Origin: Pseudomonadota bacterium
GTDB taxonomy: Bacteria > Desulfobacterota > Desulfobulbia > Desulfobulbales > Desulfocapsaceae
NCBI GenBank assembly: GCA_018817385.1
Contig: JAHIUA010000085.1
Location: 85,636-121,808, forward strand
Reading direction: 5' to 3'
DNA length: 36,173 bases
The position numbers were made by a program, and so were the translations under genes. Within the stretch, counting starts at the first letter, position 1, and each line of letters starts with the position of its first letter. The notes below the pieces were generated by a model. The model made no database searches and was not told where the DNA came from. It saw nothing but the letters and a program-made list of their open reading frames with translations. Below, in pieces: positions 4,115 to 28,081 of the stretch.

Positions 4115-4122
4115 GATTTCCC

Positions 4123-5505: not shown

Positions 5506-5543
5506 GCTCGTTCCTTCCTCCTGGTTGATTTGCCATAGAGAAC

Positions 5544-5559
5544 AGCAACGACTGTGCCA
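5544..5559 (-). promoter_or_regulatory. Sigma-54 (-24/-12) promoter of nifENB
   Basis: On the minus strand the sequence reads TGGCAC-AGTCG-TTGCT, an exact match to the TGGCAC-N5-TTGCW consensus for RpoN. It ends 38 bases before the nifE ATG, leaving room for a short leader and a good Shine-Dalgarno site. Nif genes of proteobacteria are classically transcribed by sigma-54 with NifA. Confidence 0.92.
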
Positions 5560-5632
5560 AAAAGACCACATGAATTATTTATGTTTTATTTCAGTACGAT
5601 AAAGAGTTGGACAGGAACGAAAAAGAAAAATA

Positions 5633-5945: not shown

Positions 5946-6033
5946 ACTCATTGCCTACTCGCAGCCAGAACTGGTTCCGAAATAAAAAAATCAGACGAAA
6001 TATTTTTAACCACCATCTATGAAAGGAGAAAAG

Positions 6034-7320: not shown

Positions 7321-7335
7321 ACGACCCTCTCCATC

Positions 7336-7374
7336 AGAACCGGGAAGAGGTCCTTCCTGTCAATTCCCGGTTCT
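7336..7374 (+). other. Intercistronic hairpin between urtA and urtB
   Basis: AGAACCGGGAA (7336-7346) and TTCCCGGTTCT (7364-7374) form a perfect 11-bp stem with a 17-base loop, just after the urtA stop. There is no run of T after it, so full termination is unlikely. Such hairpins after binding-protein genes commonly protect the upstream message from 3' decay, giving excess binding protein over permease; that role here is inferred. Confidence 0.75.
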
Positions 7375-7413
7375 CCCCTACCATCCACCAAAGCACTTTA
7401 ACGAGAATAGCCC

Positions 7414-9048: not shown

Positions 9049-9052
9049 CGCT

Positions 9053-10968: not shown

Positions 10969-10971
10969 CAG

Positions 10972-11667: not shown

Positions 11668-11669
11668 AG

Positions 11670-12512
11670 ATGACCGCAGCCGCAATTGACAGTGGGCCAG
11701 GCAGGGGCTGGAGCGCCCGTCTGCAACTGGAGTATGCCCAACGCCGGGGACGCACCGTTCTTGCCCGCAACCGCCACAGTGGCCCCCTTGTCGTGCAGCG
11801 GCCCCTCTATCCCGAAGGCGGAGTCTGTCACACCTGCATCCTCCATCCGCCCGGCGGGGTGGTCGCTGGTGACCGCCTGGAGATAGAAGTCCTCGCCGCA
11901 GAAGAGACCGCCACCCTTATCACCACACCCGGGGCGACCAAGTTTTACCGCTCAGATGGCAAAAAGGCTGTACAGGAACAGCATATTCGCGTCGGCAACG
12001 GCGCTATGGTTGAGTGGTTTCCTCAGGAGACCATTCTCTTTCCCGGTGCGGATGTGGAGCTCAGAACCAGGATTGACCTTGCCCCCGAGGCACTGTTTAT
12101 GGGATGGGAGATACTCTGTCTGGGGCTGCCGGTAACTGATCAACCCTTCAACAACGGACGGCTTCTGACCAGCCTCCTTATCCATCGCCACAATACCCCC
12201 CTGCTCATCGACCGGCTGCGGGTGAAGACCGCGACAGATCTGGACCGCTGCGCCGGCCTGCGCGGTTTTCCGGTGATGGCCACCTTTGTCGCCACCGCCT
12301 GCACAAGCGAGATGCTTGCCCCCCTGCGAAGCCTTGTCCCTCACGAAAAAAAGGCAATCTACGGGGTAACGCTGATGGATGAGCTGCTGGTGGCCAGATA
12401 CCTTGGTCACTCAACCTTTGCCGCCCAGCGTTTGTTTGGTCAACTCTGGAAGGGACTTCGCCCGCAGATTACAGGAAAAACTGCTTGTCCACCACGCATC
12501 TGGGCAACATGA
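11670..12512 (+). CDS. ureD: Urease accessory protein UreD (UreH)
   Basis: UreD binds the urease apoenzyme and, with UreF and UreG, forms the complex that loads nickel into the active site. The 280-residue protein contains the family segments RNRHSGPLVVQRPLYPEG and HPPGGVVAGDRLEIEV, a TTPGATKFYRS block, and EWFPQETILFPGA in the beta-rich core. The length matches the family. The first ATG after urtE (11670) gives the standard UreD N-terminus. A 57-base gap with AAAGGAA separates it from ureA. No odd features are seen. Confidence 0.95.
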   Translation: MTAAAIDSGPGRGWSARLQLEYAQRRGRTVLARNRHSGPLVVQRPLYPEGGVCHTCILHPPGGVVAGDRLEIEVLAAEETATLITTPGATKFYRSDGKKAVQEQHIRVGNGAMVEWFPQETILFPGADVELRTRIDLAPEALFMGWEILCLGLPVTDQPFNNGRLLTSLLIHRHNTPLLIDRLRVKTATDLDRCAGLRGFPVMATFVATACTSEMLAPLRSLVPHEKKAIYGVTLMDELLVARYLGHSTFAAQRLFGQLWKGLRPQITGKTACPPRIWAT

Positions 12513-12569
12513 CAAGAACAGGTACAAAACAATGCGGACACCTGTCCCGCATAGCATAAAGGAACCCCC

Positions 12570-12872
12570 ATGGAACTGACACCAAGAGAAAAAGATAAAT
12601 TGCTCCTCTTTACCGCCGGACTCCTTGCCGAACGCCGTAAAGACCGGGGCCTGAAGCTCAACTACCCGGAGGCAGTGGCCTTTATCAGTGCTGCCATCCT
12701 GGAAGGGGCCCGAGACGGCAAGTCGGTGGCCGAACTCATGGATTACGGGCGCACCCTGCTCCGCCTTGAAGATGTCATGGAAGGCATTGCCGACATGGTG
12801 CAAGAGATCCAGGTGGAGGCCACCTTTCCCGACGGCACCAAGTTGGTCACAGTCCATAATCCTATTGTCTAG
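12570..12872 (+). CDS. ureA: Urease gamma subunit UreA
   Basis: UreA is the small structural subunit of the trimeric (alpha-beta-gamma)3 nickel urease. It is exactly 100 residues, as in Klebsiella and related bacteria, and opens with the conserved [20 protein letters not shown] helix. The [13 protein letters not shown] and [16 protein letters not shown] blocks are diagnostic. AAGGAA precedes the ATG at 12570. It stands alone rather than fused to UreB, so the urease is of the three-subunit bacterial type, not the Helicobacter type. Confidence 0.97.
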
Positions 12873-12884
12873 AGAGGCTCAAGC

Positions 12885-13198
12885 ATGATACCAGGCGAAA
12901 TCATCACCCCGGAAGGTGAAATTGAAATCAACAGTGGTCGCGCCACCATCACCATCGACATCGCCAACAGCGGCGACCGTCCCATCCAGGTCGGCTCCCA
13001 TTACCACTTCTTCGAGACCAATCCCGCCCTCCTCTTTGACAGGGAAAAAACGCGGGGCTTCCGCCTCAATATTGCGGCCGGCACCGCGGTTCGCTTCGAG
13101 CCCGGTCAGAACCGCGAGGTGGAGCTTGTCGCTTATGCAGGCGACCGAACTGTCTATGGCTTTAACGGGGCCATAATGGGCCATCTGGAGGAAAACAA

Positions 13199-13202
<4 letters not shown>
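12885..13202 (+). CDS. ureB: Urease beta subunit UreB
   Basis: UreB is the second structural subunit of urease and caps the alpha subunit. It has 105 residues with the conserved start [16 protein letters not shown], the [15 protein letters not shown] block and a C-terminal [10 protein letters not shown] segment. AGAGG lies upstream of the ATG. Its stop overlaps the ureC start by four bases (ATGA), which should give near-equal synthesis of the two subunits. Confidence 0.97.
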
Positions 13203-14902
<1,700 letters not shown>

Positions 14903-14903
14903 C

Positions 14904-15347
14904 ATGATTCACTTCACTCAAAAAACAGAGGCCGTCCAGGAAGCTGCGACCACACTGACCCTGCCCTGGTCACAGCGCAACAAGAGCCGCCAGCGCGTCC
15001 GACTGGATAATGGTGAGGAGGCCGGCCTTTTTCTCGAACGCGGCATCATCCTCCGGGGTGGTGACTGTCTGACCGCAGAGGACGGCACCATTGTCAGGAT
15101 AGTGGCGGCCACGGAAACCGTGTCTACGGTGCAGTGCCAAGATCCCCTGCAGCTGGCACGTATCTGCTACCATCTCGGCAACCGTCATGTGGACCTGGAA
15201 ATCAGCAAAGACCGGGTCCGCTACCCGCATGATCATGTCCTCGATGCCATGCTCCAAGGTATGGGCCTGACAGCAACGGTTGAGCAGGCCCCCTTTGAGC
15301 CGGAAACCGGTGCCTATGGTCAAGGGCATGGACACCACCATGGCTGA
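14904..15347 (+). CDS. ureE: Urease accessory protein UreE (nickel metallochaperone)
   Basis: UreE binds nickel and passes it to UreG for insertion into urease. With the ATG at 14904 the protein has 147 residues. It shows the N-terminal peptide-binding domain (LTLPWSQRNKSRQRVRLDNG, LFLERGIILRGGD) and the C-terminal metal-binding domain (CYHLGNRHVDLEI, YPHDHVLDAML) with the conserved central histidine. It ends in a short His/Gly-rich tail, GQGHGHHHG, less extensive than the Klebsiella tail. The start one base after the ureC stop was chosen over an upstream extension inside ureC. Its last eight bases overlap the likely ureF start. Confidence 0.94.
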   Translation: MIHFTQKTEAVQEAATTLTLPWSQRNKSRQRVRLDNGEEAGLFLERGIILRGGDCLTAEDGTIVRIVAATETVSTVQCQDPLQLARICYHLGNRHVDLEISKDRVRYPHDHVLDAMLQGMGLTATVEQAPFEPETGAYGQGHGHHHG

Positions 15348-16014
15348 CCGCGATGCACTGCTGCACCTCCTCCACCTTGTCAGCCCCACCTTGCCCACCG
15401 GCGCCTTCAGCTATTCACAAGGACTGGAATGGGCGGTTGAGGCGGGATGGGTCCATGACGGTCCAACTCTCCAGGGCTGGCTCATCGATCTGATCGAACA
15501 ATCGCTGGCTTTTGTCGATATCCCCATTTTAGGCCGGATGATGACAGCGATAATAAACGAACAGCTCCTGGAGTTGGAGGAGTGGTGTGGTGTCCTCCTG
15601 GCCTGCCGTGAAACCTCCGAACTACGCCAGGAGGAACAGATCCGAGGCCGCGCCCTGGCAACCTTGCTCCAGGGTCTTGCTGTTGAGGGCGGCCAATCGC
15701 TGGCAAAGACCCTGAACCGCTGCCAGCTGGCCGGCTTTGCCCTGGCGGCCGTAGAGTGGAATATAGAGATGCGAGATGCGGCCCTCGGCTATACCTGGGC
15801 CTGGCTGGAAAATCAGGTCCTGACCGGGATCAAGATCATTCCCCTGGGCCAGACAGAAGGTCAGCGCCTTCTCCTCCACCTCAGTAGAGGGATCCCCCAG
15901 ATCGTCGACCAGGGCCTGCGACTTCAAGAGGAAGATATCGGTGCTGCAAGTCCCGCTTTTGCACTGGCCTGCAGTCTGCACGAAAATCAATACACCCGAA
16001 TTTATCGATCGTAA
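15340..16014 (+). CDS. ureF: Urease accessory protein UreF
   Basis: UreF bridges UreD and UreG in the nickel-loading complex and gates GTP hydrolysis by UreG. Starting at the ATG at 15340 gives 224 residues opening [23 protein letters not shown], shortened here to the [20 protein letters not shown] motif that marks UreF N-termini. The rest is all-helical with the [17 protein letters not shown] and [11 protein letters not shown] segments. The start is not certain: in-frame ATGs at 15316 and 15328 and a TTG at 15280 would lengthen it. I prefer 15340 because it gives the family-standard N-terminus and overlaps the ureE stop. Confidence 0.93.
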
Positions 16015-16025
16015 AGGAACGAACC

Positions 16026-16643
16026 ATGACGCCAACAGAAAAGCCCTCTCCTCTCCGCCTCGGCATCGGCGGCCCGGTGGGTTCCGGCAAGACCGCCCTC
16101 ATAGATGCCCTCTGCCGCAAGATGCGCGACCGCTACCAGGTCGCCGTGGTGACCAACGACATCTATACCCGGGAAGATGCCGAATTCCTCACCCGCAGCC
16201 AGGCCCTGCCCGCTGAGCGAATCGTGGGTGTGGAAACCGGAGGCTGTCCGCATACCGCCATCCGCGAAGATGCCTCCATGAATCTTGCCGCAGTCGATGA
16301 CTTCATCCACCGCTTTCCCGATCTGGACCTGATCATCATTGAGAGCGGCGGCGATAACCTGAGCGCCACCTTCAGTCCGGAACTGGCTGATCTGATGATC
16401 TATGTCATTGATGTGGCAGCAGGCGACAAGATACCGCGCAAGGGTGGGCCTGGTATCACCCGCTCCGACCTGCTGGTGATCAACAAGATCGACCTGGCCC
16501 CCTTGGTGGGGGCGTCCCTGACGGTGATGGACCAGGACAGCAAAAAGATGCGTCGGGAAAGGCCCTATGTTTTTGCCAATATGAAAACCGGCCAGGGGGT
16601 GGATGAGATACTGACTTTTATCGAGGAGAAAGGAATGCTTTAA
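16026..16643 (+). CDS. ureG: Urease accessory GTPase UreG
   Basis: UreG is the SIMIBI-class GTPase that dimerises around nickel and drives its insertion into urease. The 205-residue protein has a P-loop GPVGSGKT at residues 16-23, the nickel-binding CPH motif at C74-H76 within [15 protein letters not shown], the [17 protein letters not shown] switch region, and the NKIDLAP guanine-specificity motif. AAAGGAACGAACC precedes the start. It is the last gene of the urea operon; no clear intrinsic terminator is visible in the 119 bases before jetA, so read-through into jetA is possible. Confidence 0.97.
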
Positions 16644-16762: not shown

Positions 16763-18295
16763 ATGACCTCTTCCTCAACAGATCAGCCCATCACCCTTTT
16801 TTCCGACCAGCCCCTTTCGGCCTTTGATCAGGGAATGGCTGCTGAGCTGATTAAACGCCGTAATCCCAATCTCGGCAGTCTGTTGATCACCGAACGTGCC
16901 CCCTTTTATGTCACCATCCTCTACCGCATGCTGCTCTTTAAACGGGATCATGAGTTGGAGCCACTCTATGATGATATTTATCAGGCAGTGTTCCACCCCT
17001 TGGAAGGCCTGGAACAGACTGAATACTCACCTGACCGCTTCCGCACGGATCTTGACCAGCTGGCCAACTGGAATCTGGTCTCCTCCCGTATCGAGAAACA
17101 GCGACTGCGTGGCTATCGGGACAACCGCAAACGAAAATTTCGCTATCGTCTGAGCGATGAGGCAGCAAGCCTGCTCCACTGGCTTGAGCAGCGACTGCAG
17201 GACGAACTGGAAGAGCGCAGCAATGACGCCAGGGATCTGCTCGGAGAGGTTCGCGGCGCCCTTGGCGAACTGCTCCGCCTCCTGCATGGGTTACGCCTCA
17301 ACGCTGAGGGCCAGGAGGACAGTGCCAGGCGTATCATATTTCAGCTGGGTAAAGCAGACGATCTCTGCCAGTCCACCACCGAAGGACTGATTGATTTGAA
17401 TGGCCGCTTAATGGCCTTTTTACTCCGGCGTTATGAGGCCGATGAGGTTCGGATCATCCTTGGCGAACTGGATAACTATGTGCAGGTTTTTCTGAAACAG
17501 GCATTTGGCCTGCGCCGGGAAATTGTCCCCCTGTTGCACCGTCTGCAAAAAAGAAGCATCCAGGATAAACTGCACTTTGCCTTTACGGCGATGGAAAAAG
17601 AACGGCGTCTCGCGCCCCATCTCCTCCAGGTACGCAGAGAGGCTTCCGGCCTCGCTATTCCGGACAGACTCAACCGTTTTTTTGAAGACCAGGGCGGACT
17701 TGACCACCTGTTACAGCGGATCAATGAATCCTCTCTCCAGGTGTGGCAAAAGCTGCGCAGCCATCTGCAGGAACTGGAGAGAAAAAACCACCGTTTGCAG
17801 GATCTCCGACACAGAATTGAGGAAATTGCCAGCCTTGATGAATCCGTTGTTCCCCTTCATTTTATGGAAAAGCTGTGCTCTTGCGGCCAGGGATTCTTTG
17901 ATCGAAACTATTGGGACAGCCGGGAAAAGGCCGACCCTCCCCAACCCAGCCGGCGTATCAGCAGAAAGGAAAAGATTATCCGCGCCTATATCAAGCCGAA
18001 GAAAAAGTCAGATGGCCCGGTACAGAGCATGGACGAGGCCCGCTTGGCTTCCCTTGAAAAATGGCTGCAGGAAAAAGTACTGTCGCCACCGGCCAATGGC
18101 CAGGTTGAAAAAGGGGACTTTGGCGAATTTGCAGATTTCCCTCGCATCATGGAACTGGCCAGGGCTGGACTTCTAGGTGAGGGAAAGAGACTGGCCAGCA
18201 TTGCCCTGCTTCTCCAGGCTGCAGAAGAACGGGCAAAACTTGATTTTGCCTCCTGTCAGCTTGATCTTCCGAAGCTCACCGTAAAAGCAAACTGA
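16763..18295 (+). CDS. jetA: Wadjet defence system subunit JetA (MukF/kleisin-like)
   Basis: This 510-residue soluble protein is best explained as the kleisin-like JetA subunit of a Wadjet (MksBEFG-type) complex, which recognises and cleaves small circular plasmid DNA. It has an N-terminal winged-helix-like region (about 45-135, with LVSSRIEKQRLRGYRD), long helical stretches in the middle (about 140-355) and a basic C-terminal part. A CSCG motif near residue 371 is seen. The N-terminus does not look like the DUF3375 proteins of type I Wadjet, so I leave the subtype open. The identification leans on the nearby jetB-jetC-jetD genes and on MukF-like architecture. It lies on the same strand but is separated from jetB by a 3-kb antisense gene. 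The ATG has no strong ribosome site. Confidence 0.72.
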   Translation: MTSSSTDQPITLFSDQPLSAFDQGMAAELIKRRNPNLGSLLITERAPFYVTILYRMLLFKRDHELEPLYDDIYQAVFHPLEGLEQTEYSPDRFRTDLDQLANWNLVSSRIEKQRLRGYRDNRKRKFRYRLSDEAASLLHWLEQRLQDELEERSNDARDLLGEVRGALGELLRLLHGLRLNAEGQEDSARRIIFQLGKADDLCQSTTEGLIDLNGRLMAFLLRRYEADEVRIILGELDNYVQVFLKQAFGLRREIVPLLHRLQKRSIQDKLHFAFTAMEKERRLAPHLLQVRREASGLAIPDRLNRFFEDQGGLDHLLQRINESSLQVWQKLRSHLQELERKNHRLQDLRHRIEEIASLDESVVPLHFMEKLCSCGQGFFDRNYWDSREKADPPQPSRRISRKEKIIRAYIKPKKKSDGPVQSMDEARLASLEKWLQEKVLSPPANGQVEKGDFGEFADFPRIMELARAGLLGEGKRLASIALLLQAAEERAKLDFASCQLDLPKLTVKAN

Positions 18296-18318
18296 AAACT
18301 ATTGGCTACCTTGAAAAA

Positions 18319-21300
18319 TTAATCGCCAGTAACAAAATCCGCGACATCATCCATCAGTTTGACCAGTAAATCTTTGGGGACGGTTTCAGCCTGTGCCAAC
18401 CCCATGACCTGCATGATAAGAGCGGCCTCACCGGGGGTCAGGATCCCTTGAGGCACCGCTTCGCTAAATACCCAGACCCCAGCCTCTGAGGAACTCGGTG
18501 CGGCATCAAGTCCAGACAAATCTGCGGCCTTTGTCAACAGGGCAGACAACAGTAATTCCAGGGCAGGACGCCCCATATTCTGCTCAACAAGAACCCTGGC
18601 GGCATCACATTTTTCTGCTGCCATAGTCGCCAACCTTGTCAGGCCTGAATCAATATGCCTTTGCGGCTCATACCAGGTTTGTGCCTCTGCCAGGGGCGAA
18701 GCAGCACCCAGTCGATTCAAACCATTTAAGGAGATAAGGTCGATAAGAGCCACCGGGAGAGTGGACGAGAGTTCCACAGCCAGACTCTCAGCCTCACTGT
18801 CAACTCGATCCAACACGGCAATCAAGCCCCCTTTGGCCCCTAAAATACGTTCAATCCTTGGCCCAAGTCCCTTTTGCAGCTCGTCAATACAATAACGGAT
18901 AGCCTCTTCCATTCTGGTGTCCGGGGAAGAGGGCTCACGACCTTCAACCACCTTATTGTCAGATGGTTCAGGCAGCTGATCAGACGCATCTTTTTCACCT
19001 GCCCCACTCCCCTTTCCTGCTGTCAGATCATCAACCAGAGCATCTATAAGTTTTTTGGAAACACCAATCACATCCTCTGAAGCATCCTCCCTAACCACAT
19101 TGTCAAAGAGGTTCTGCTTGGTAGTAAGCAGGCCAAGCACATGTTCTTCATAGGAGTCAGCCGCCACCATGGTGATGATCTGCACCTTTTGCTTTTGCCC
19201 CAGACGATGGATTCTGGCATTACGCTGTTCCAGGACCGCAGGATTCCATGGAACATCCAGATTGATGAGGACCGAGCCGCTTTGCAGATTCAAACCAACA
19301 CCACCGGCATCAGTGGAAACAAAGACCTGAATTGCGTCATCTTCACGAAACCGGTCCATCAACTCACCCCGTTTGGCCGTAGGCACTCCACCATGGAGTC
19401 GGACAAAGCCCAGACCCATTCTACGCAACCGCTGTTCCACCATACGGGTCATCATCTCCCACTGGGAAAAGACCACGGCCTTGCGACCAGACTGCACACA
19501 TATCTCATCCAGAATATCAGCAAGCTCATCAATCTTCGGACTGCCTTCGGTTTCTTTATCCACCAACCCAGCGGCATTACAGGCCATTCGTGCCTGTTGC
19601 AGAGCAGCCATTAAGCGATTTCGCTCACTCGGAGTAAGGGGGCGTTTCTTGGCTATACTGGCAAGTTGACCGGCATTACCCAGGGCAGCATTATGAATTT
19701 CAAGCTGTTTTTCAGTCATTCCCACGTCAAGACGCTGATTGGTTCGTTCCGGCAGTTGATCACTCACCAGACTTCGATCCCGCCTTAACATTACCGGCTC
19801 CAAACGCTTTCTCAGCAGGGAAAGATTTCGATAGCCCATAATCTTGCCCCGTTCATCCATTACATGAAAATCAACCATATAACGCCAGAGAGGTCCGAGG
19901 ACTTTAGGATCAACCACCTGCATCAGACTGTAGAGGTCTTCCAAGCGATTTTCAAGGGGCGTTCCAGTGAGGACAAAGGCGTAGCGACTGGGGATCAGCT
20001 TAACAGCCGAGGCGATCTTGGTGCGCCAATTCTTGATACGCTGGGCCTCATCCATGATGATGAGATCGGGAGCCAAGGTTTTAGTAAGTATTGAAAGATC
20101 ACGAAGAATCAGTTCATAATTAAGGATAAAAAAATTCACTTGCCTACGATATTGGGCATGACGCTTGTCAGGTGGGCCACCGATGATCTGGCTCTGCATA
20201 TCCGTAAACTTGGCAATTTCCCTGGCCCACTGCTGCTTAAGAGATGCCGGACAGATAATGAGTATCTTTTTAACCCCTTCATGATCCTTCAGCCAGCTGG
20301 CAGCGGAAAGAGCCTGCAGCGTTTTACCCAGGCCCATATCATCGGCCAGTAGTGCCCGACCGGTACCGGCCAGAAAGGCGGTACCGGAAACCTGATAAGG
20401 ATAAAGTCTGGCCCTGATACCCGGCAATCGCCCCCTGCTGTTTTCAATATCGCGCCTGATATCTGCAGAGCGCAAGCGGTGGCCTGCCGCCTGGGCCCGC
20501 TGTCTGGCCCAATCAACGGCATCATCACCAATATGGATATCACCACGGCCATCGGCAAGCTCAACAAAACTGAAAAAATCTTCCGGAATCCTACCTGTAA
20601 ATTCACCACCTTCCCCAAAATAGTTCGCCAGAAGGGCCTGCAGTTCCCCGCTCATTTCCTTCATCGGGTACAGACGGATAATCGGCCCATTATCCTGGTC
20701 CAGATAGACATAGGGAAAGGGCGCCGCCTGGTCTTTAAATTCGTCGTAGCGCGGATGTTTTCTGATTTTGTGCAGGACCGCCTCGATATGCTTACAGGTA
20801 CCGAGTTGATTGCCGGCAAAATCCGGGCAGGAACAAAAATTTGCCCGTTTGTGAAGATTACGGATTACGACCCGATAATTACGGGGGAAAACGGCATTAA
20901 TGGAAGATGCCCGCCAACTGCCAAACCAGGGCTGGCCACTTTCCGCTTCCACCTGAACTTCTGCTTGAGCCCGTTTCATCCGGTCTTTGATGGCTGTATC
21001 AACGGCAGAAAGCAGACCATCAATCTCCTGGCGCTGATCAGCATAGGCATAGAGGACGGCCACCTGATGATGACACATTGCCTGCCCGCTTTCCTCACAA
21101 TCACAGTGAAAATGGAGGCTGCCTTCCGGGCTTGACTCAATCAGGATATCCAGGGGAATATCTGTCAACTCTTCATCTTCCACCACCGCCCAGAGTCTCT
21201 TTTCATCCTGGTCAATCTCCAACACCCTGTTTTCCTTAAAAAGGGTCAGGCCCCGGCCAATGGCTTTTTGGTGGGCAACATCCTGTAACTCTTCACGATC

Positions 21301-21345
21301 AAAGAAAAAGATGTCTTCATTTACTGGTTGGCAGATATAGGGCAT
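18319..21345 (-). CDS. SNF2/RapA-type DNA translocase with two SWIM-like zinc motifs
   Basis: This is a superfamily 2 ATPase of the SNF2 class, expected to move along double-stranded DNA and displace bound proteins. With the ATG at 21345 it has 1008 residues. Two SWIM-type zinc motifs precede the motor: C81-x-C83 with C91-x-H93, and C171-x-C173 with C184-x-H186. The motor has Walker A DDMGLGKT near residue 332, DEAQ near 430, LTGTPLENRLEDLYSL, and the helicase C-terminal motifs STDAGGVGLNLQ and RIHRLGQ near 712. The last about 270 residues form an acidic linker and an unrecognised helical domain. A TTG at 21411 would extend it but has no ribosome site. It sits antisense between jetA and jetB, convergent with jetA and divergent from jetB. 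Whether it works with Wadjet is inference. Confidence 0.9.
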   Translation of the reverse strand: MPYICQPVNEDIFFFDREELQDVAHQKAIGRGLTLFKENRVLEIDQDEKRLWAVVEDEELTDIPLDILIESSPEGSLHFHCDCEESGQAMCHHQVAVLYAYADQRQEIDGLLSAVDTAIKDRMKRAQAEVQVEAESGQPWFGSWRASSINAVFPRNYRVVIRNLHKRANFCSCPDFAGNQLGTCKHIEAVLHKIRKHPRYDEFKDQAAPFPYVYLDQDNGPIIRLYPMKEMSGELQALLANYFGEGGEFTGRIPEDFFSFVELADGRGDIHIGDDAVDWARQRAQAAGHRLRSADIRRDIENSRGRLPGIRARLYPYQVSGTAFLAGTGRALLADDMGLGKTLQALSAASWLKDHEGVKKILIICPASLKQQWAREIAKFTDMQSQIIGGPPDKRHAQYRRQVNFFILNYELILRDLSILTKTLAPDLIIMDEAQRIKNWRTKIASAVKLIPSRYAFVLTGTPLENRLEDLYSLMQVVDPKVLGPLWRYMVDFHVMDERGKIMGYRNLSLLRKRLEPVMLRRDRSLVSDQLPERTNQRLDVGMTEKQLEIHNAALGNAGQLASIAKKRPLTPSERNRLMAALQQARMACNAAGLVDKETEGSPKIDELADILDEICVQSGRKAVVFSQWEMMTRMVEQRLRRMGLGFVRLHGGVPTAKRGELMDRFREDDAIQVFVSTDAGGVGLNLQSGSVLINLDVPWNPAVLEQRNARIHRLGQKQKVQIITMVAADSYEEHVLGLLTTKQNLFDNVVREDASEDVIGVSKKLIDALVDDLTAGKGSGAGEKDASDQLPEPSDNKVVEGREPSSPDTRMEEAIRYCIDELQKGLGPRIERILGAKGGLIAVLDRVDSEAESLAVELSSTLPVALIDLISLNGLNRLGAASPLAEAQTWYEPQRHIDSGLTRLATMAAEKCDAARVLVEQNMGRPALELLLSALLTKAADLSGLDAAPSSSEAGVWVFSEAVPQGILTPGEAALIMQVMGLAQAETVPKDLLVKLMDDVADFVTGD

Positions 21346-21377
21346 GATAGTAAATATAGTGAAGATGATTAGAGGCT

Positions 21378-21447
21378 GAGCAGTGCTCCCAAAAAATCCT
21401 TGCCCCGCCAAGTAAAGAAGGTATGGTTAAAAAACCATATATATAAT
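21378..21447. promoter_or_regulatory. Divergent promoter region between the SNF2 gene and jetB
   Basis: The 132 bases between the two starts hold two dyads and a clear -10 box. GAGCA-G-TGCTC (21378-21388) is a perfect 11-base palindrome on the SNF2 side. TATGGTT (21422-21428) and AACCATA (21433-21439) form a 7-bp dyad. TATAAT at 21442-21447 is an exact -10 for rightward transcription of jetB, leaving a leader of about 25 bases. No good -35 is seen; the second dyad sits where it would lie, as an operator or activator site might. Confidence 0.5.
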
Positions 21448-21477
21448 TCAAAAACCTCAGCCCTGTAAAGAAAAAGG

Positions 21478-22128
21478 ATGGACATTGAACTAACCAAAAT
21501 GCTCGACCGCAGTGGCGACAAGGTTCGGGCGGTATTAAATATCCTCATAGAAAGTCCCTGTTTTTATGCCAGCGACCGCCAGGAGCTCTTTTATTTTTTG
21601 CGCCGCCATCGCCGGGAGTTCAATGATTTTTTTGACAAGATGTATGGCTGGCAACTCTTGATGGATGCGAAATGCGCCAGGGTTTACAAGGGGGAGTGGC
21701 ACAACCCAGCCATCACCCCGGCCAACCGGGCCATGTTCAATTTCAGCCGTCGAGACGAATGCCTTGCCTTTATGATGCTTCTGGAATTTTTTGAACAACA
21801 ACTGGAAGAAAACGGCATGACCGTGGAGGACCAACACAATCTGCGTTTTCATTTCGGTGACCTGTTGCACCACATCCACCGCCGCTTCCAGGAGATTTTT
21901 CCGGGTGATGCGGAGCGTTACAGTGAAGAGTATGTACGGGCCAAAGCGCTAAAACCCATCATGCCTGAGCTGGAAAAATACCGCTTTATCAAACGGATAC
22001 AGCCGCCTGAAGATCTGGTTGCCCTGGCAGATGAGGTCATCTACGAGGCCCTGCCAGCCCTCTACCATTACAATAGCGCAGCACTGAGCCGTATGCTGCC
22101 CGAATTGCAGAGGGAAGAACAAATATGA
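21478..22128 (+). CDS. jetB: Wadjet defence system subunit JetB (MukE-like)
   Basis: JetB is the MukE-like kite subunit that binds the kleisin JetA in the Wadjet condensin. The 216-residue soluble protein is mostly helical, rich in aromatic and charged residues (HRREFNDFFDKMYGW, ANRAMFNFSRRDECLAFMMLLEF, FGDLLHHIHRRFQ), and resembles the DUF4194 family. The length is right for JetB. Its stop overlaps the start of jetC by four bases (ATGA), so it is translationally coupled to the SMC-like gene. It is the first gene of the jetBCD block and appears to have its own promoter with a TATAAT box about 30 bases upstream. Confidence 0.85.
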   Translation: MDIELTKMLDRSGDKVRAVLNILIESPCFYASDRQELFYFLRRHRREFNDFFDKMYGWQLLMDAKCARVYKGEWHNPAITPANRAMFNFSRRDECLAFMMLLEFFEQQLEENGMTVEDQHNLRFHFGDLLHHIHRRFQEIFPGDAERYSEEYVRAKALKPIMPELEKYRFIKRIQPPEDLVALADEVIYEALPALYHYNSAALSRMLPELQREEQI

Positions 22129-25100
22129 AACAGCAACTCCCCTTTGCCATCACCCGCATCCGCCTGATAAACTTTCATAATTTTGTTGATGAGACCATTT
22201 CCATTCCCGACAGCGGCCATCTCTTTCTCCTTGGCGATAACGGCTGCGGCAAGACCACCGTCCTTGATGCCATCCATTATGTGCTCACCGCCGGTCGCTC
22301 CATGGAATGGAATTCCGCCGCCAGGGTTACCGGACGGAGAGACGGAGGGAGGAGGTTACAGGGCGTCATCCTGCGCTACAACATGGAAACAGGAGTGATG
22401 AACCAGCAAGGTTCCATCACTTACGCAGCTATTGAAATTGCCGGGCGCAATGGCCAACCGCTTACCATCGGCCTGGGGATGTCGGTCGCGGCCATGGATG
22501 AAAAGGTTAACCCATGGGGAGTAATTCGGGAATGCCCCCTGGAAGAGATCCCCTTTCTCATTGATGATGACCATGGCAGACGTCCCGCCTCCCGCCGCGA
22601 ATTCAAACAGGCACTGGGCAACAGCCGCGGTTTTTATCGGGATGCGACCACCTTTCGCCGGGAACTTGCAGGACGCCTCTTTGGCGGCACCGACAGTTAC
22701 CAGGAAATATGCCGTTTTCTCAGTATGGGCAAGGCCTACCGTGAGATTGCCGCCGGAGCAGCGGATTATCATGAACTCTTTAAACAGTTGCTGCCGGAAC
22801 CGCACACCACCTTATTTGAACAGATCATTGACGGCCTGCGCACCCTTGACAGCTCCCGTACCCTGCTCGACGATCTCGAACGCAAGGTTGACTATGTCCG
22901 CTCTCTGCAGGAGTTGATCACCAACATCGACAGACAGCAGGAGGCAATTTGCCGCTATGACTGGCTCCTCTGCCGATGGAATCTCAAGACAAACCAAAAA
23001 GAACAGCACCAAAATGAAAAAGAGCTGACGCGCCTGGGGCTGAAACAACAAGAAGGAGAGGCCAGACTGCACGCCTTGCAGCGACAGGACCAACAACTCC
23101 ATGAACGCCTGGCTGATCTCAAGGCCAAAGATAACAGTGGCCTGGTACGCCAGGAAAAAAGCTGCAAGGGGGAACTTCAGGAAAAAAAGGCCAAGCTTGC
23201 CATCCATGTCTCCCGGTTGAAAAATGAAAAAAAAGTGGTCCGTCAGGCGGAACTGGAACAAGAACGGCAGCACAGGGAATTGACCGATCGACTGGGTAAA
23301 GTGATCAGTGAATGCGGCCGCCGCGCCCGGAACCTGCCTTTTTCTATCACCTCTCTCCAGCAGGAGGTGGATCAACTGTTCCGCACCCCTGATGTCGACC
23401 GCTGCTCCCAGTTAGAAGGACAGGAAACCTTTGCTACTATCAAGGAACACCTCCATACACTCAATGGACAGTCTGTCCTCCTGGAAAAGGAGATTGACCG
23501 AGGCGCGGCAGAGCTTTCTGAGCAAGAAAAGCTCCTGGAGACCCTGCGCAAACAGGAAACTCCACAGCCGCAACAGGATATTTTTTCATGCATCCGAGCC
23601 ATGCAAAATGAAATGATTATCCCCAAACCCCTCTACCTTGGCTTGGAGTGGTTTCCCGGTCTGGATCTGGCAGAACAGGGTCGGATCGAAGAAGTCATTG
23701 GCGAAGAGGTACTGGTAACCCTAATCATAGCGGACAATGATTATCCAACATGTCGAACCCTTATCACGGATTGGCCAGGGATGAGAATAAGCTGTAAATC
23801 ACGGGCAGCAGAAGATCTGCCCGAGTGGATGCGCAGCGTCTTTGATATTCAAAACAGTGATCCCGACGCCCTTCGCTGTCTTGCCGCAGAGATGGAGAGT
23901 AGCCGGGAACCAGTTGTCAGCCGGCTCAACAACAAAAATCTGCTTGCCTTCCGCAGCCACGAACGAACGCTTTTCGGAAAGGGCGCCCGGCTCATTGGCA
24001 CAGAAAGTCGCAGGCAGGCACTGGCAGAAGAGATCAGCGTGCTGGAAACAGAGATCAGCCGACTGGCCCAAAAACAACTCAAACAAGAGAAAGAACTCAA
24101 ACGCATTGAGGGGCAAAAAGAACTACTGGAAAACTTTCGAGTCACCCTTTCCGATCTACTCAAAGAGATCGGCAGACTGGCCCATCAGCTCACAGCATCA
24201 CAAAAGGAAACCAATCACTGCCGGGATCGTTACAGGCAACAAAAAGAGCGGCATGATGAGCTGGAGAGTGAAGTTGAACACCTTGCCATCCGTTATCAAG
24301 AACTGACAGAGTTGATTGCCCAGGAAGGGCTTGCCGGTCTGGATCGGCGCATCAGCAGCCTGGAGAGTCAGTGGCGAACAAATCGGGATACAATCAATAA
24401 AGAGAATCAACAACTCGGCGCGCTTAACAGTGACAGCAAACAGAGCAAAGAAAGGCAGAAGCGACTTGCAGCAGAATATGAAGCGCTGCAGGTTGAACTG
24501 AACCAAAAAACAGGTGAGCTTGCCTCCCGCCTGCCGGACATTGAAGATATTGCTTACTATGTCTTGAAGACAAAGACAGGTCAGCAATTTAGCAGCAGCG
24601 CCGCCATTATCAAAAAAAGGGAAGAGGCTGAGCGGGATGCCATCAGCCTGATCCTGGAGCTAAAAAAGGTGAAGCTCAACGATCCCGAGTTCGGTGCCAC
24701 CTTTCGCTTCTCCTACACGGAGACGGCCAACCAGGTTCAGGATTTTCGCGGACGCCTCTTATCCGACATCCTGCCGGAACAGGAGCAGGCTGTTCGGGAA
24801 CAGCAGGAGCTTATTAACGACCACACCCGTGAGCTTTTCACCAAGATCATCATGACCGACCTGATGACCTATCTTCGCAGCCATGTCAGCAGTCTGGAAC
24901 AGATGATACGCCGCATTAACAGCCTCCTGGCCCACAGATCTTTTGGCGGTCAGCGCTACCGTTTCCGGGTTCGTCCCCTGGAAAATTTTCGCCGCCTGGT
25001 GGAGGTGGTAAAAAAATTCAGCCCTTTCGATCCGAAGGCGGACAAAGAAGTGCGTCACTTTTTTGAAGATCACCGAAATGACATTATGGCTGCCGAAGTG

Positions 25101-25583
25101 GGCGCTGTCCCAGAGGAACTGGACTACCGCAACTGGTATCGCTACGAACTGGAAGTCTCCTCCGTAGGAGAACAGGGGGTGGTGATGGATAGAACCACCA
25201 AAAGTATCGGCTCCGGCGGAGAACAGGCGGTGCCGAATTATCTCCTGATCCTGACCATTGCCCACTTCCTCTATCGGGGCAAAAAAGTCCGGCTGCACAC
25301 CCTGCTCTTTGACGAAGCCTTTTACGGTATTGATGCAGGGCGGCGGGACCAGCTGCTCGGCTTTGCCACGGATCTTGACCTCCAACTTTTTGTGGCCTCA
25401 CCTGACCAGGACGGGGTGCGTCGGGAAATCAAGCACTCCACCACCCTGTTTGTGGTCAAAGATAAGGACTTCAATGTTCACCTGCGCGATTTCCACTGGG
25501 AAAATCCGAATATCAGCAAACAACCAGGCTTATTTGATGGGCCTCAGGAAGAAAAGCCCATAGTCTTCGGAGAAGAGCTCTAA
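22125..25583 (+). CDS. jetC: Wadjet defence system SMC-like ATPase JetC (MukB-like)
   Basis: JetC is the SMC-like motor that extrudes DNA loops, so the complex can sense small circular DNA and present it to the nuclease JetD. The 1152-residue protein has an N-terminal ABC head with Walker A GDNGCGKTT at residues 37-45. Two long coiled-coil arms (about 270-470 and 640-850) flank a globular hinge-like segment (about 480-640). The C-terminal head lobe carries the ABC signature SIGSGGEQAVPNYLL near 1028 and Walker B HTLLFDEAFYGID near 1060, with a catalytic glutamate. All ATPase motifs are present, so it should be active. It overlaps jetB by four bases, and jetD follows seven bases after its stop. 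Confidence 0.92.
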   Translation: MKQQLPFAITRIRLINFHNFVDETISIPDSGHLFLLGDNGCGKTTVLDAIHYVLTAGRSMEWNSAARVTGRRDGGRRLQGVILRYNMETGVMNQQGSITYAAIEIAGRNGQPLTIGLGMSVAAMDEKVNPWGVIRECPLEEIPFLIDDDHGRRPASRREFKQALGNSRGFYRDATTFRRELAGRLFGGTDSYQEICRFLSMGKAYREIAAGAADYHELFKQLLPEPHTTLFEQIIDGLRTLDSSRTLLDDLERKVDYVRSLQELITNIDRQQEAICRYDWLLCRWNLKTNQKEQHQNEKELTRLGLKQQEGEARLHALQRQDQQLHERLADLKAKDNSGLVRQEKSCKGELQEKKAKLAIHVSRLKNEKKVVRQAELEQERQHRELTDRLGKVISECGRRARNLPFSITSLQQEVDQLFRTPDVDRCSQLEGQETFATIKEHLHTLNGQSVLLEKEIDRGAAELSEQEKLLETLRKQETPQPQQDIFSCIRAMQNEMIIPKPLYLGLEWFPGLDLAEQGRIEEVIGEEVLVTLIIADNDYPTCRTLITDWPGMRISCKSRAAEDLPEWMRSVFDIQNSDPDALRCLAAEMESSREPVVSRLNNKNLLAFRSHERTLFGKGARLIGTESRRQALAEEISVLETEISRLAQKQLKQEKELKRIEGQKELLENFRVTLSDLLKEIGRLAHQLTASQKETNHCRDRYRQQKERHDELESEVEHLAIRYQELTELIAQEGLAGLDRRISSLESQWRTNRDTINKENQQLGALNSDSKQSKERQKRLAAEYEALQVELNQKTGELASRLPDIEDIAYYVLKTKTGQQFSSSAAIIKKREEAERDAISLILELKKVKLNDPEFGATFRFSYTETANQVQDFRGRLLSDILPEQEQAVREQQELINDHTRELFTKIIMTDLMTYLRSHVSSLEQMIRRINSLLAHRSFGGQRYRFRVRPLENFRRLVEVVKKFSPFDPKADKEVRHFFEDHRNDIMAAEVGAVPEELDYRNWYRYELEVSSVGEQGVVMDRTTKSIGSGGEQAVPNYLLILTIAHFLYRGKKVRLHTLLFDEAFYGIDAGRRDQLLGFATDLDLQLFVASPDQDGVRREIKHSTTLFVVKDKDFNVHLRDFHWENPNISKQPGLFDGPQEEKPIVFGEEL

Positions 25584-25590
25584 CCCTCAT

Positions 25591-26808
25591 ATGGACACTC
25601 TCACTGCGCAGCTCAGTCTGATACTGGTAAAGATATGTAAGCGCCATGAAAAGCGAGGTACTCTTTCCGGCATCATGAAGCTGGGCCAGGATCTGGACGA
25701 GGCAGAGGGCAGGGACATAGAAAATTTCTTCGGTCTGGCCCCTCTCATCCATACCTCCAGAAACGAGATCAAACTCTCCTTTGAGCGCTTTTTGGCAGGC
25801 AAAAGTGAAAACGAAATTGCCACCTTGCTGGAACGGATCTATCAGCTGAGCGGTCGAAACCGACCGACTTCTCTTTCTTTGCATAATGATGCGGCACCCC
25901 TGCTGCTGGATCAGCTAAAGCTCAACTTTCCACGCCTTGGCCCTATCCACCAGGTTCTGAGCCAAAACCAAGAATCCCTTGCTCGTAAACTCCGCCAACA
26001 GACAAGCCAGATTCGGCAGTTCTATTTCACTGCCGCTACAATCGTTGATTACCTGCTGGACAATGAAAAAGAAATCACCCTCTCTGAATTAGGCGCCCGT
26101 TTCTGCGCAGACAGTAAACAACTGCGCCAGGGCGAACTGAAAAAAGTGGTGGAGCAGTGGCTGCGCCTGATGCGCCCCGAGCTGCCGGAAAACGAAGAAG
26201 TATGGGAGGAGTTCCTGGTCATCCGCGATCGTCTGACCATCACCGCTCTGCTCTTTGCTCCACTCATTTACAGCAAAGGCGGGCGGGAATATGACTGGAT
26301 AAACCAGCTCTACCAGGCAGGAGAACCTGCCATGGTCAGCTGGTTTCACCTCGAAGGGATCACCTCCTGCCGCCTGGCCGGTAAAAAAAAGGAAAACGCC
26401 ACTCTGATAAGCTGCGAAAACGAGGCACCATTCAGCCAGCTGCTCCGGGAAGAAACAGGCCATGTACTCCTTTTCAGCGCCGGCTTTCCAAACCGGGCCG
26501 TACGCAAACTCTACCAGCTTCTTTCACCCCTTGCCTCCAATTGCCACCACTGGGGAGACAGTGATCTGGCTGGTCTGCGCATTGCAGCCATCTTACACGC
26601 CATCCATCCACTCAAGCTGTGGAGATGTGACCTGGCCACCCTCAAACGCCATAAGACCAAATTGCTCCCTCTGGCAAAAAATCAGGCTCAGGCGGCATCC
26701 TCCATACTCCGCACTGAGCCAACTTTCCCCTTTGCGCCAGAACTGAGTTTCACTTGCGAACATGGCTGGCTGGAGCAGGAAAGCTGGCTGGCCGAAAAAT
26801 CCAATTAA
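25591..26808 (+). CDS. jetD: Wadjet defence system Toprim nuclease JetD
   Basis: JetD is the nuclease of Wadjet; its fold resembles the topoisomerase VI A subunit, and it cuts plasmid DNA held by the JetABC motor. The 405-residue protein has an N-terminal helical and winged-helix part (about 1-250) and a C-terminal Toprim domain. The Toprim acidic residues are visible: E276 in ISCENEAPF, and D323 and D325 in HWGDSDLAGLRI. The ENEAPF and WGDSDLAG motifs are typical of the JetD C-terminal (DUF2220) family. It is the last gene of the jetBCD block and converges on kbl, with 55 bases between their stops and no clear terminator. The presence of JetD separates this locus from ordinary MukBEF or MksBEF chromosome condensins. 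Confidence 0.88.
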   Translation: MDTLTAQLSLILVKICKRHEKRGTLSGIMKLGQDLDEAEGRDIENFFGLAPLIHTSRNEIKLSFERFLAGKSENEIATLLERIYQLSGRNRPTSLSLHNDAAPLLLDQLKLNFPRLGPIHQVLSQNQESLARKLRQQTSQIRQFYFTAATIVDYLLDNEKEITLSELGARFCADSKQLRQGELKKVVEQWLRLMRPELPENEEVWEEFLVIRDRLTITALLFAPLIYSKGGREYDWINQLYQAGEPAMVSWFHLEGITSCRLAGKKKENATLISCENEAPFSQLLREETGHVLLFSAGFPNRAVRKLYQLLSPLASNCHHWGDSDLAGLRIAAILHAIHPLKLWRCDLATLKRHKTKLLPLAKNQAQAASSILRTEPTFPFAPELSFTCEHGWLEQESWLAEKSN

Positions 26809-26863: not shown

Positions 26864-28081
26864 TTAAAATTGCCGGAGCACAGTCAGGACAAAATCGATA
26901 TCCTTTGCGGTGTGCTCGGCGGAGACCTGAAACCTGATCTCTTCATCTCCCCGGGGCACCACCGGATACTTCAAACCAGTTGCCAGGATACTGTTTTGAA
27001 AAAGATACTCCACCAGCCGGGCCGTTTTTTCAGTATCGCGAACCAAGAGAGGAACAATGGGGTGCTCACCGCAAAGGACCTCAAGGCCGAGATCCATCAG
27101 CCCCACTTGCAGACGTTTTGTGAGACTGCGCAGCCTTTCAAGGAGGGCACCCCCTTCTGGACCCTCAAGAATGTCCAGAGACTTGCAGGCGACGGCTGCC
27201 TCAGCAGGGGTGACAGGATTTGAATAAATATAAAAAGGGGCCGTCTCCCGCAGATACTCGATGATGGTGCTGCTACCGGTAACATAGCCACCATTTACCC
27301 CCAGGGCCTTGCCCAGAGTGGCAACCAGCAGATCGACCTTGGCATCGGTATATTCCTCGGTCCCCCGTCCGGTCTGGCCAAAAGCCCCCACCCCATGCGA
27401 ATCATCAACAAGGGTGATGATTCCCTCGCCAAAGTTCTCTTCATAGCGCTCACAGGTGGCCACCAGTTTGTCCAGAGGGGCATACTCACCACGCATACTG
27501 AAAATGCCGTCGCTGACCACAAGGACTCTTTTGCCTGCCCCAATGGCCTGCTGCAACTTTACCTCCAGATCTCCCATATCCAGATGAGCATAGATCTCTT
27601 TTGCTGCCGGCCGGGACAGCCTGATCCCATTGATGATACAGTTATGATTCAGGGCATCACTGATGACAATGGTTTCTGAAGTGATAAGAGCGGGCAACAC
27701 CGCCATAACAGCACTGTAGGCAGCACTGAAAAGCATGGCCGATTGCCGGTGATGGAATGCTGCCAATCTCTTTTCAAGATCTACATGGGGCTGATAGGTG
27801 CCGCTGATAAAGCGAACCCCACCGGGTCCGGTGCCGAATTTACTAGCCGCTGCCTCTTCTGCCTCAATAAGCTGCCGGTTACGGGACAGGCCAAGATAAG
27901 AGTTAGAGTTCATCTGCAGAAACTCTTTACCCCCCTGCCCCTCTAAATAGAGGCGCGGCCCCCAATTGTCCTGAGCTCCTTTTACTCCGCAGATGACTGT
28001 CTCCCTGCCCTTCAGTATCCCCTCTATTTGCCGTTCTGCCAGCTGGACCCTGAGTATTTTTTCCAGTGCTTTGGTGGTCAT
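26864..28081 (-). CDS. kbl: Glycine C-acetyltransferase (2-amino-3-ketobutyrate CoA ligase)
   Basis: This PLP enzyme of the alpha-oxoamine synthase family converts 2-amino-3-oxobutyrate and CoA to glycine and acetyl-CoA, the second step of threonine degradation. The 405-residue protein has the PLP lysine K258 in VATLGKALGVNGGY, the cofactor-binding aspartate in LVDDSHGVGAFG (D226/D227), and SDALNHNCIINGIRLS. Members include 8-amino-7-oxononanoate synthase (BioF), but the KGRETVICG start and the adjacent threonine dehydrogenase gene support Kbl. Its ATG overlaps the tdh TGA by one base (TGATG), so the two are translationally coupled. It is the last gene of the sixA-tdh-kbl operon. Confidence 0.94.
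   Translation of the reverse strand: MTTKALEKILRVQLAERQIEGILKGRETVICGVKGAQDNWGPRLYLEGQGGKEFLQMNSNSYLGLSRNRQLIEAEEAAASKFGTGPGGVRFISGTYQPHVDLEKRLAAFHHRQSAMLFSAAYSAVMAVLPALITSETIVISDALNHNCIINGIRLSRPAAKEIYAHLDMGDLEVKLQQAIGAGKRVLVVSDGIFSMRGEYAPLDKLVATCERYEENFGEGIITLVDDSHGVGAFGQTGRGTEEYTDAKVDLLVATLGKALGVNGGYVTGSSTIIEYLRETAPFYIYSNPVTPAEAAVACKSLDILEGPEGGALLERLRSLTKRLQVGLMDLGLEVLCGEHPIVPLLVRDTEKTARLVEYLFQNSILATGLKYPVVPRGDEEIRFQVSAEHTAKDIDFVLTVLRQF

Follow-up and report, generated by a model that had tools for sequence, protein, structure and literature searches.

A SNF2-family ATPase gene with two SWIM motifs splits a divergent Wadjet locus and belongs to a subfamily repeatedly linked to Wadjet

Why does a gene for a SNF2-family ATPase lie between jetA and jetB of a Wadjet locus? 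The first-pass annotation of the 36,173-nucleotide stretch of Desulfocapsaceae DNA analysed here (the window) described jetA, then an opposite-strand 1008-codon SNF2 gene with two SWIM motifs, then jetB, jetC and jetD on the strand of jetA. Open reading frames confirmed this order and these strands, and the locus reads as follows.

16763..18295, plus strand: jetA, kleisin-type subunit of 510 aa, DUF2397 (PF09660, 30.4 bits against a cut-off of 28.5; best PADLOC model JetA2)
18319..21345, minus strand: SNF2-family ATPase of 1008 aa from an ATG, with two N-terminal SWIM motifs (PF00176, PF00271, PF04434)
20320..20343, minus strand: DDMGLGKT, residues 335-342, which we take to be the SNF2 Walker A motif; invariant in both the 12- and the 36-sequence alignment
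20788..20835, minus strand: second SWIM motif, C171-x-C173 ... C184-x-H186; over the PF04434 cut-off and invariant in 36/36 aligned sequences
21067..21105, minus strand: first SWIM-like motif, C81-x-C83 ... C91-x-H93; invariant in 36/36 aligned sequences
21346..21477, no strand: 132-base intergenic region separating the divergent SNF2 and jetB starts, G+C 0.37
21478..22128, plus strand: jetB, KITE-type subunit of 216 aa, DUF2398 (PF09661, 43.6 bits against a cut-off of 26.9; best PADLOC model JetB2)
22125..25583, plus strand: jetC, SMC/MukB-like ATPase of 1152 aa (PADLOC JetC1, PDLC00519, 7.6e-60; Pfam AAA_29 and SbcC_Walker_B)
25591..26808, plus strand: jetD, Toprim-type nuclease subunit of 405 aa (DUF2399, PF09664, 33.5 against 23.4 bits; JetD_C, PF09983, 30.9 against 22 bits; best PADLOC model JetD2)

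Coordinates of the SWIM and Walker A motifs were computed from residue numbers, and a TTG at 21411 offers an alternative SNF2 start (1030 aa). The jetA and SNF2 stops are separated by 23 bases. The overlap that had been described for jetB-jetC-jetD is real for jetB and jetC (4 bases) but not for jetC and jetD, where jetD begins 7 bases past the jetC end. None of jetA, the SNF2 gene, jetB, jetC and jetD contains an internal stop, and dN/dS is low (~0.1 for the SNF2 gene and 0.05-0.16 for the jet genes, a rough guide only because dS exceeds 1.2), in agreement with the earlier view that the locus shows no sign of decay.

The locus holds all four Wadjet genes (kleisin, KITE, SMC ATPase and Toprim nuclease) and departs from a contiguous one-strand jetABCD in having the SNF2 gene between jetA and jetB. 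The system is divergent: JetA, JetB and JetD are type II-like, whereas for JetC a type I model is the best fit (PADLOC JetC1, PDLC00519, at 201 bits against 119 bits for JetC2). Scores against NCBIfam TIGR02677, 02678, 02679 and 02680 were all under the cut-offs (score/cut-off 32.6/165.85, 29.2/124.65, 45.7/196 and 91/462.85 bits); this Wadjet is of type II at the domain level and lies outside the curated NCBIfam family. A sequence search of solved structures at 0.01 returned no relative of JetA.

On the interrupting protein, Pfam placed SNF2-rel_dom (1.4e-43), Helicase_C (8.7e-23) and SWIM (6.8e-05; second motif, residues 158-193). The first SWIM-like motif received no Pfam call in the window protein, and Pfam SWIM matched the same motif in a relative (L204). 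Both motifs have the CxCx(n)CxH form of a SWIM zinc module, and their eight residues (C81, C83, C91, H93, C171, C173, C184 and H186) did not vary in either the 12- or the 36-sequence alignment. With SNF2-related and helicase C domains, and with DDMGLGKT, DEAQRIKN, LTGTPLEN and RIHRLGQ intact in its translation (which we take to be the SNF2 ATPase motifs), the protein classes as a SNF2 ATPase. Among solved structures, the closest by sequence is the Sulfolobus SNF2/Rad54-family helicase core 1z63. A fold search with the predicted model of the protein (mean pLDDT 76, pTM 0.47) matched SNF2-family remodellers, generally over the common SNF2 core, and left the SWIM region and the C-terminal part without an assignment. 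Narrower identities were rejected: RapA/HepA (PRK04914, 78.7 bits against a cut-off of 576), Zorya ZorD (148.9 against 1500 bits), DISARM DrmD (142.3 against 950 bits) and DpdE, all four with matches over the core that lie far under the NCBIfam cut-offs. We also rejected a mobile-element passenger: 72,556 plasmid records gave no match at 1e-100, the best 80 matches listed in viral contigs were distant (26-33% identical, mainly over the core), and no transposase lies among the genes between ureG and kbl.

We then asked how widespread the split is. The suggestion that an antisense SNF2/SWIM gene might recur between jetA and jetB was not borne out: among the loci examined, the complete interruption was found in this genome only. 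jetA adjoins jetB in 15/15 related genomes, so a widely conserved split order was rejected (0/15) and the departure from contiguous jetABCD looks secondary. In the near JetABC relatives G100 and G138, which are without the window's SNF2 gene, the jetA stop overlaps the jetB start by four bases. A further check covered seven more JetB loci from the class (G251, G173, G255, G162, G155, G151 and G248). jetA adjoins jetB in the first four, and in G155 the two are ~0.45 kb apart with no SNF2 gene inside; no jetA could be recognised in the 233 and 180 bases that remain before the contig end in G151 and G248, respectively. As judged from sequence, G248 probably shares the split by common ancestry because its jetB is without jetA upstream, its jetB leader is 90% identical to the last 27 bases and start codon of the window's intergenic region, and the closest SNF2 relative (L085, 78%) is found in the same genome, where a small contig carries it with 1.1 kb of non-jet sequence ahead of the SNF2 start; contig ends leave its gene order unproven. 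The intergenic region before jetB also contains an inverted repeat (TATGGTT-AAAA-AACCATA, 21422-21439), which was picked by eye before being searched for, making any rarity post hoc. Scans for promoters and terminators yielded little more than shuffled sequences did.

The SNF2 insertion left the jetA and jetB reading frames unharmed. This, together with the single complete arrangement, would suit a chance insertion of a gene unrelated to Wadjet, as the first-pass annotation had considered. The distribution of the subfamily argues otherwise, as it is linked to Wadjet in 12 loci besides the window, in several geometries. Among 144 relatives, 14 genomes carry both SNF2/SWIM and Wadjet and the two are co-located in 11, in five geometries (6/16 type II-like and 5/21 type I Wadjet genomes). 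All seven linked type I cases are co-directional with Wadjet, upstream of jetA in L056, L059 and L110 and after jetD in L058, L067, L073 and L118. Co-directional spacing is only 5-9 bases in G006 and G132. Two observations weigh against a partnership: in G117 a broken SNF2/SWIM copy adjoins a complete jetABCD, and the near JetABC relatives G100 and G138 are without this SNF2 gene. On the SNF2 tree, the 13 Wadjet- or Mks-adjacent tips are scattered, needing at least 10 label changes; on the JetABC tree, 6 tips need 5. Members of a second SNF2 subfamily occur at or close to Wadjet in G138, G105 and G044, with a fragment in G087; in G044 a separate SWIM protein also precedes jetA.

SNF2/SWIM and Wadjet (types I and II-like) also co-occur genome-wide, in tests that are only partly corrected for phylogeny. 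Wadjet was present in 14/19 SNF2/SWIM genomes and 23/125 others among the 144 nearest genomes (Fisher p 2.9e-6), and in 19/30 carriers and 43/227 others in an overlapping 257-genome sample of the class (p 1.1e-6). The association held by genus (9/11 vs 12/39, p 0.003), and it persisted within the window's family (p 0.002) and beyond it (p 0.0005). In Chromatiales, a strong JetD match occurred in 22/32 SNF2/SWIM genomes and 28/115 others; with genome size and restriction-gene count accounted for in 137 of the 147 genomes, the odds ratio was 4.1 (p 0.005). Because the subfamily recurs beside two Wadjet types, is scattered on its tree and, in two bacterial groups, tends to share genomes with Wadjet, a chance insertion is very improbable. 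The SNF2/SWIM gene does not turn up at Wadjet loci at random.

Is it then a fifth Wadjet subunit, as had been proposed? It cannot be a constant one: of the 37 Wadjet genomes in the set of 144 relatives, 26 lack a SNF2/SWIM gene at the locus (where some contigs are cut), and SNF2/SWIM genes mostly lie away from Wadjet. The protein could instead be a stand-alone genome-maintenance or anti-invader ATPase that comes near Wadjet through shared accessory islands, the two never cooperating. Consistent with this, 71 of the best 80 SNF2/SWIM loci have no adjacent Wadjet gene, although only 42/79 have 3 kb on both sides, and the neighbours vary. Wadjet is not the sole recurrent one: nine of the best 80 loci have a co-directional helicase (UvrD-, PIF1- or DpdF-like) within 1.4 kb, four have what we take to be a phosphorylase-like gene within 227 bases on the other strand, and a type I methyltransferase neighbours the gene in L103. 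In Chromatiales, 0/40 sampled Wadjet loci had a SNF2 gene (>100 bits) in the available flanks, and G263 is the only linked genome there. Twelve further SNF2/SWIM genomes of the class included six with no Wadjet found and none linked in the available flanks; in G180, a single-contig genome, jetA lies 14 kb upstream. However, Wadjet genes are jointly the commonest recurrent neighbours of the best 80 loci (9 loci, with single jet clusters at 3-6 each and two other clusters matching with 5), and among the non-jet neighbour clusters of Wadjet genomes, SNF2 ATPases rank first (13 genomes, against at most 4 for any other). A SNF2 family 39% identical is Wadjet-linked in 0/3, and the tight spacing in G006 and G132 likewise speaks for cooperation. 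We regard a stand-alone role as possible but somewhat doubtful.

Our preferred explanation, held tentatively and at a little under even confidence, is that the protein is an optional accessory factor working with the divergent Wadjet, its gene gained at the jetA-jetB junction, and that it aids extrusion by clearing the track. We infer the functional partnership, which linkage supports; the clearing step is speculative. A chromosomal gene for a SNF2-family dsDNA translocase with two SWIM zinc modules would have entered the junction in a lineage that the window probably shares with G248. The protein would track along duplex DNA and displace whatever is bound there, be it RNA polymerase, nucleoid proteins or plasmid proteins; the JetABC loop extruder could then complete the circle on the cleared track, and JetD would cut. 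The SWIM modules may supply DNA or partner binding. In PMC12647877, Wadjet-I with a closed hinge is described as cutting circles that bear two obstacles poorly, and type II nvJET as unable to bypass obstacles.

The same translocase activity could serve the opposite end, stripping Wadjet or stalled extruders off the host chromosome and so limiting self-damage. Mot1, which removes TBP, provides a model, and Mot1:TBP complexes were among the fold matches, though the fold matches generally span the core that SNF2 proteins share. The variable placement would also suit a factor that is optional and transcribed separately. Such protection is not generally needed, as the 26 Wadjet genomes that do without the gene at the locus indicate, and we consider this role quite improbable. 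A broader version of the preferred explanation, which we think unlikely, is that SNF2/SWIM proteins are general track-clearing escorts of processive DNA machines, namely type I and II-like Wadjet, the MksBEF condensin with which one subfamily member is paired (L099), and the neighbouring UvrD-, PIF1- or DpdF-like helicases. Beside Wadjet, such an escort would be an auxiliary motor for crowded plasmids, compensating for an SMC unable to bypass obstacles.

Among the open-licence PMC papers that searches listed, no title or abstract described a SNF2 partner of Wadjet or MksG. Wadjet appears with four subunits in the relevant part of a review (PMC10586767), and the SNF2/SWIM pairing would add an accessory class to this anti-plasmid system. 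How loop-extruding SMC complexes handle DNA-bound proteins is called an open question in part of PMC12647877; if nature has repeatedly paired a family of nucleoprotein-remodelling ATPases with an SMC nuclease that is tractable in vitro, plasmid-cleavage assays could put it to the test.

Compared with known systems, the locus resembles type II Wadjet (JetABCD; DUF2397-DUF2398-SMC-DUF2399) in having all four subunits in the same order and strand, with JetA, JetB and JetD matching type II models. It differs in its scores under the TIGR02677-02680 cut-offs, a JetB of only 216 aa, a 1152-aa JetC best fitted by the type I model, and the SNF2 gene inside. With type I Wadjet (DUF3375-DUF4194-SMC-DUF3322/2220) it shares the best PADLOC model for JetC, and type I loci in related genomes carry the same SNF2/SWIM subfamily, whereas the window's JetA and JetB belong to type II families. 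RapA/HepA and Bacillus YwqA/HepA are likewise SNF2 translocases, said in part of PMC7385302 to backtrack or remove RNA polymerase, and offer an analogy for track clearing, although the window protein falls under the RapA model cut-off. Finally, it shares a SNF2 core plus SWIM with the SWIM-associated prokaryotic SWI2/SNF2 ATPases, but represents a twin-SWIM subfamily that is often Wadjet-linked in its class.

The first-pass annotation described jetA, an opposite-strand gene for a 1008-amino-acid SNF2 ATPase with two SWIM motifs, and jetB-jetC-jetD, and ORF and domain calls confirmed this order between the following two genes.

16026-16643, ureG, end of a urease cluster, upstream of jetA
26864-28081, minus strand, kbl-like gene, downstream of jetD

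All four Jet subunits were named by both Pfam and PADLOC. The best-fitting models were type II for JetA, JetB and JetD and type I for JetC, and none of the four proteins reached the NCBIfam type II cut-offs; judged by these profile matches, the window's Wadjet is divergent. The SNF2 protein comprises an N-terminal region with the two SWIM motifs, a SNF2 core (~320-720) and a C-terminal part (~810-1005 in the structure model) matched by no Pfam or NCBIfam model. Its top solved relative by sequence, the Sulfolobus SNF2/Rad54-family helicase core (1z63), ranked ninth in the fold search. The gene has no internal stops and a dN/dS of ~0.1 (with saturated dS), and decay is therefore not indicated, as had been claimed from the first reading. 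Elsewhere in the window, a transporter-like cluster followed by urease genes (6019-16643) ends just upstream of jetA, and two related genes at 2753-5571 are, by their look, presumably nitrogenase-type component proteins.

A JetB search of 144 related genomes (genus, family and order levels) found the protein in 16, and in all 15 besides the window's genome jetA directly adjoins jetB (the G017 contig is cut inside jetB). The jetA stop and jetB start share a four-base overlap in genomes G100 (79% over JetABC) and G138. This adjacency and overlap in relatives indicate that the window gained a gene exactly at the jetA-jetB junction. The window jetB is preceded by a 132-base A+T-rich divergent region, and a perfect inverted repeat between SNF2 and jetB, TATGGTT-AAAA-AACCATA (21422-21439; picked by eye, with rarity assessed post hoc), is a possible operator. 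In a class sample of 257 genomes, which takes in most of the 144, this JetB occurred in 23, seven of them outside the first sample. In four of these seven, jetA again lies next to jetB; G155 shows a gap of ~0.45 kb; and in G151 and G248 jetA was not found upstream of jetB as far as the contig ends.

L366:1-825 (locus on contig C126 of G248), jetB, no jetA in the 180 bases upstream

The 30-base stretch that ends with the jetB start codon is 90% identical between G248 and the window. The window SNF2 gene also has its nearest relative in G248 (L085), on a 4.4-kb contig that carries no jet genes. The split is probably common to both genomes, with the G248 locus broken by assembly. In this check for recurrence of an antisense SNF2 gene between jetA and jetB, the complete jetA/SNF2/jetB order was seen only in the window.

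SNF2 matches at 1e-100 were present in 30 of the 144 genomes: 19 of the same subfamily (SNF2/SWIM; best piece at least 57%), several of whose copies are fragmented or ended by contig edges, and 11 in a 38-40% family. Type I Wadjet was found in 21 of the 144 (one JetA1 query, 1e-20). Type I or type II-like Wadjet occurred in 14/19 SNF2/SWIM genomes versus 23/125 others (Fisher p = 2.9e-6), and co-occurrence was also seen by genus (p = 0.003) and in two taxonomic strata (p = 0.002 and 0.0005, with the family boundary taken from handle numbers). Furthermore, the two lie together at one locus in 11 of the 14 genomes carrying both.

SNF2 between jetA and jetB: window
SNF2 divergent from jetA: G056, G017, G067
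SNF2 just after jetD: G006, G126, G119, and a broken copy in G117
SNF2 2.3 kb after jetD: G066
SNF2 upstream of jetA: G132, G123

In G132 the neighbouring genes are clearly of type I (JetA1, 1.3e-192); in G142, G087 and G141, SNF2/SWIM and Wadjet are on separate contigs. As a small control, the 38-40% family had Wadjet in 3 of 11 genomes, none linked. An unrelated insertion that split the operon had been offered as the alternative to a fifth Wadjet component; this co-occurrence and linkage show that SNF2/SWIM is no random visitor. The SNF2/SWIM copy of G117 follows a complete type I jetABCD but is broken, with its middle missing (L073:6924-8326), which suggests that SNF2/SWIM can be lost and Wadjet kept.

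The class sample contained the subfamily in 30 of 257 genomes at 1e-140 (the G117 fragments score below this), type I Wadjet in 39 and type II-like in 23; either type was present in 19/30 carriers versus 43/227 others (p = 1.1e-6). Six of the 12 new carriers have Wadjet, and none of the 12 showed it beside SNF2 in the flanks examined, including L085 and L092 (from G253). In G180, a single-contig genome, a type I jetA begins 14 kb upstream of SNF2 on the same strand.

Another SNF2 subfamily is also found at or near Wadjet loci, tail-to-tail with jetD in G138 and G044, downstream in G105 and as a 292-aa fragment in G087. The G138, G044 and G105 proteins are complete, with 36-39% mutual identity over their full length, and that of G138 has one SWIM-like motif. 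The G044 arrangement corresponds to the fused SWIM-SNF2 gene split in two.

L213:260-3325, plus strand, SNF2 gene tail-to-tail with jetD
L213:10047-11921, minus strand, SWIM protein of 624 aa as a separate gene, immediately before type I jetA

In G087 (L211:10827-11966) and G045 (L212:10122-11264), related 380-aa proteins are encoded immediately before type I jetA. Of the 37 Wadjet-bearing genomes, 15 have an SNF2 ATPase of either kind at the locus or near it, more than for any other neighbour cluster.

Among the best 80 of 333 SNF2 relatives in named genomes (at least 13 of them from genomes already carrying G handles), profiles built in this analysis placed Wadjet genes beside SNF2 in nine loci, including two absent from the 144 (L110, type I, Deltaproteobacteria; L118, type I, Candidatus Sedimenticola). 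Pooled, Wadjet genes are the commonest neighbours in these 80 loci; as single clusters, jetD1 reaches up to six loci and two unrelated clusters five, one of which we take to be a phosphorylase-like gene (within 227 bases of SNF2 in four loci). L099 carries MksE/MksF/MksB instead of Wadjet (MksE 4e-31; MksB and MksF assigned by position). A co-directional helicase lies within 1.4 kb of SNF2 in nine of the 80 loci, and SNF2/SWIM with a UvrD-like or DpdF/UvrD-fusion helicase is possibly another recurrent module.

L099:2491-7156, MksF/E/B condensin-like set; L099:8077-13632, SNF2/SWIM and PIF1/HRDC helicase, same strand
UvrD-like helicase next to SNF2/SWIM, same strand: L092, L094, L104, L117
DpdF/UvrD fusion helicase next to SNF2/SWIM, same strand: L102, L105, L137
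PIF1-like helicase next to SNF2/SWIM, same strand: L099, L163

In L103 (Desulfobulbus elongatus), a JetD-like gene (11185-12285) without jetABC in the flank lies 7.5 kb from SNF2/SWIM and also near a type I methyltransferase. Flanks reach at least 3 kb on both sides in only 42 of 79 loci (L101 ends 147 bases upstream), so the solitary status of SNF2 loci is only partly secured.

Strong JetD matches (>100 bits) occurred in 18 of 45 genomes of the best-80 loci (one SAR324, the rest mostly named Gammaproteobacteria) versus 23 of 229 class genomes (p = 4e-6, uncorrected for genome size). In 147 genomes of Chromatiales, which we take to be the order of L132 (Thiocapsa), SNF2/SWIM was present in 32 and strong JetD in 50, the latter in 22/32 SNF2/SWIM genomes versus 28/115 others (p = 5.7e-6). 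Adjusted for genome size and N6_Mtase count, the odds ratio was 4.1 (p = 0.005; 137 genomes, leaving out 10 with no listed size and negative for both genes). Linkage was seen only in G263 (L118): a sample of 40 of the 50 strong JetD loci, G263 not included and some loci cut short, contained no SNF2 gene >100 bits, and 20 restriction loci likewise had none. Of all results, this near-absence of linkage weighs most against a tight SNF2-Wadjet partnership everywhere, and an independent ATPase that shares islands with Wadjet is an alternative. On the SNF2 tree (INDEPENDENCE; 89 rows, built by a quick method without bootstrap), the 13 tips adjacent to Wadjet or Mks require at least 10 changes. The window SNF2 clusters with L085, and this pair lies near L086, a neighbour of type I Wadjet. 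The JetABC tree (16 rows) requires five changes for six linked tips. Linkage was gained or lost many times, the change counts being blind to gain versus loss.

According to one study, large obstacles pass through the Wadjet-I hinge, hinge closure impairs Wadjet-I cutting of two-obstacle circles, and the type II nvJET is bypass-incompetent (PMC12647877). SNF2 translocases such as HepA/YwqA are described as moving back or removing RNA polymerase (PMC7385302). Because of these obstacle and polymerase-removal data, we favour a model in which SNF2 would act as a translocase and clear plasmid DNA in front of the Wadjet loop extruder. Since SNF2 is also associated with bypass-capable type I systems, a role restricted to type II is disfavoured. 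An alternative to track clearing is that SNF2 would strip Wadjet off the chromosome. We found no report of a SNF2 or SWIM partner of Wadjet in the open-access literature searched, and regard the system as Wadjet with an optional SNF2/SWIM gene.
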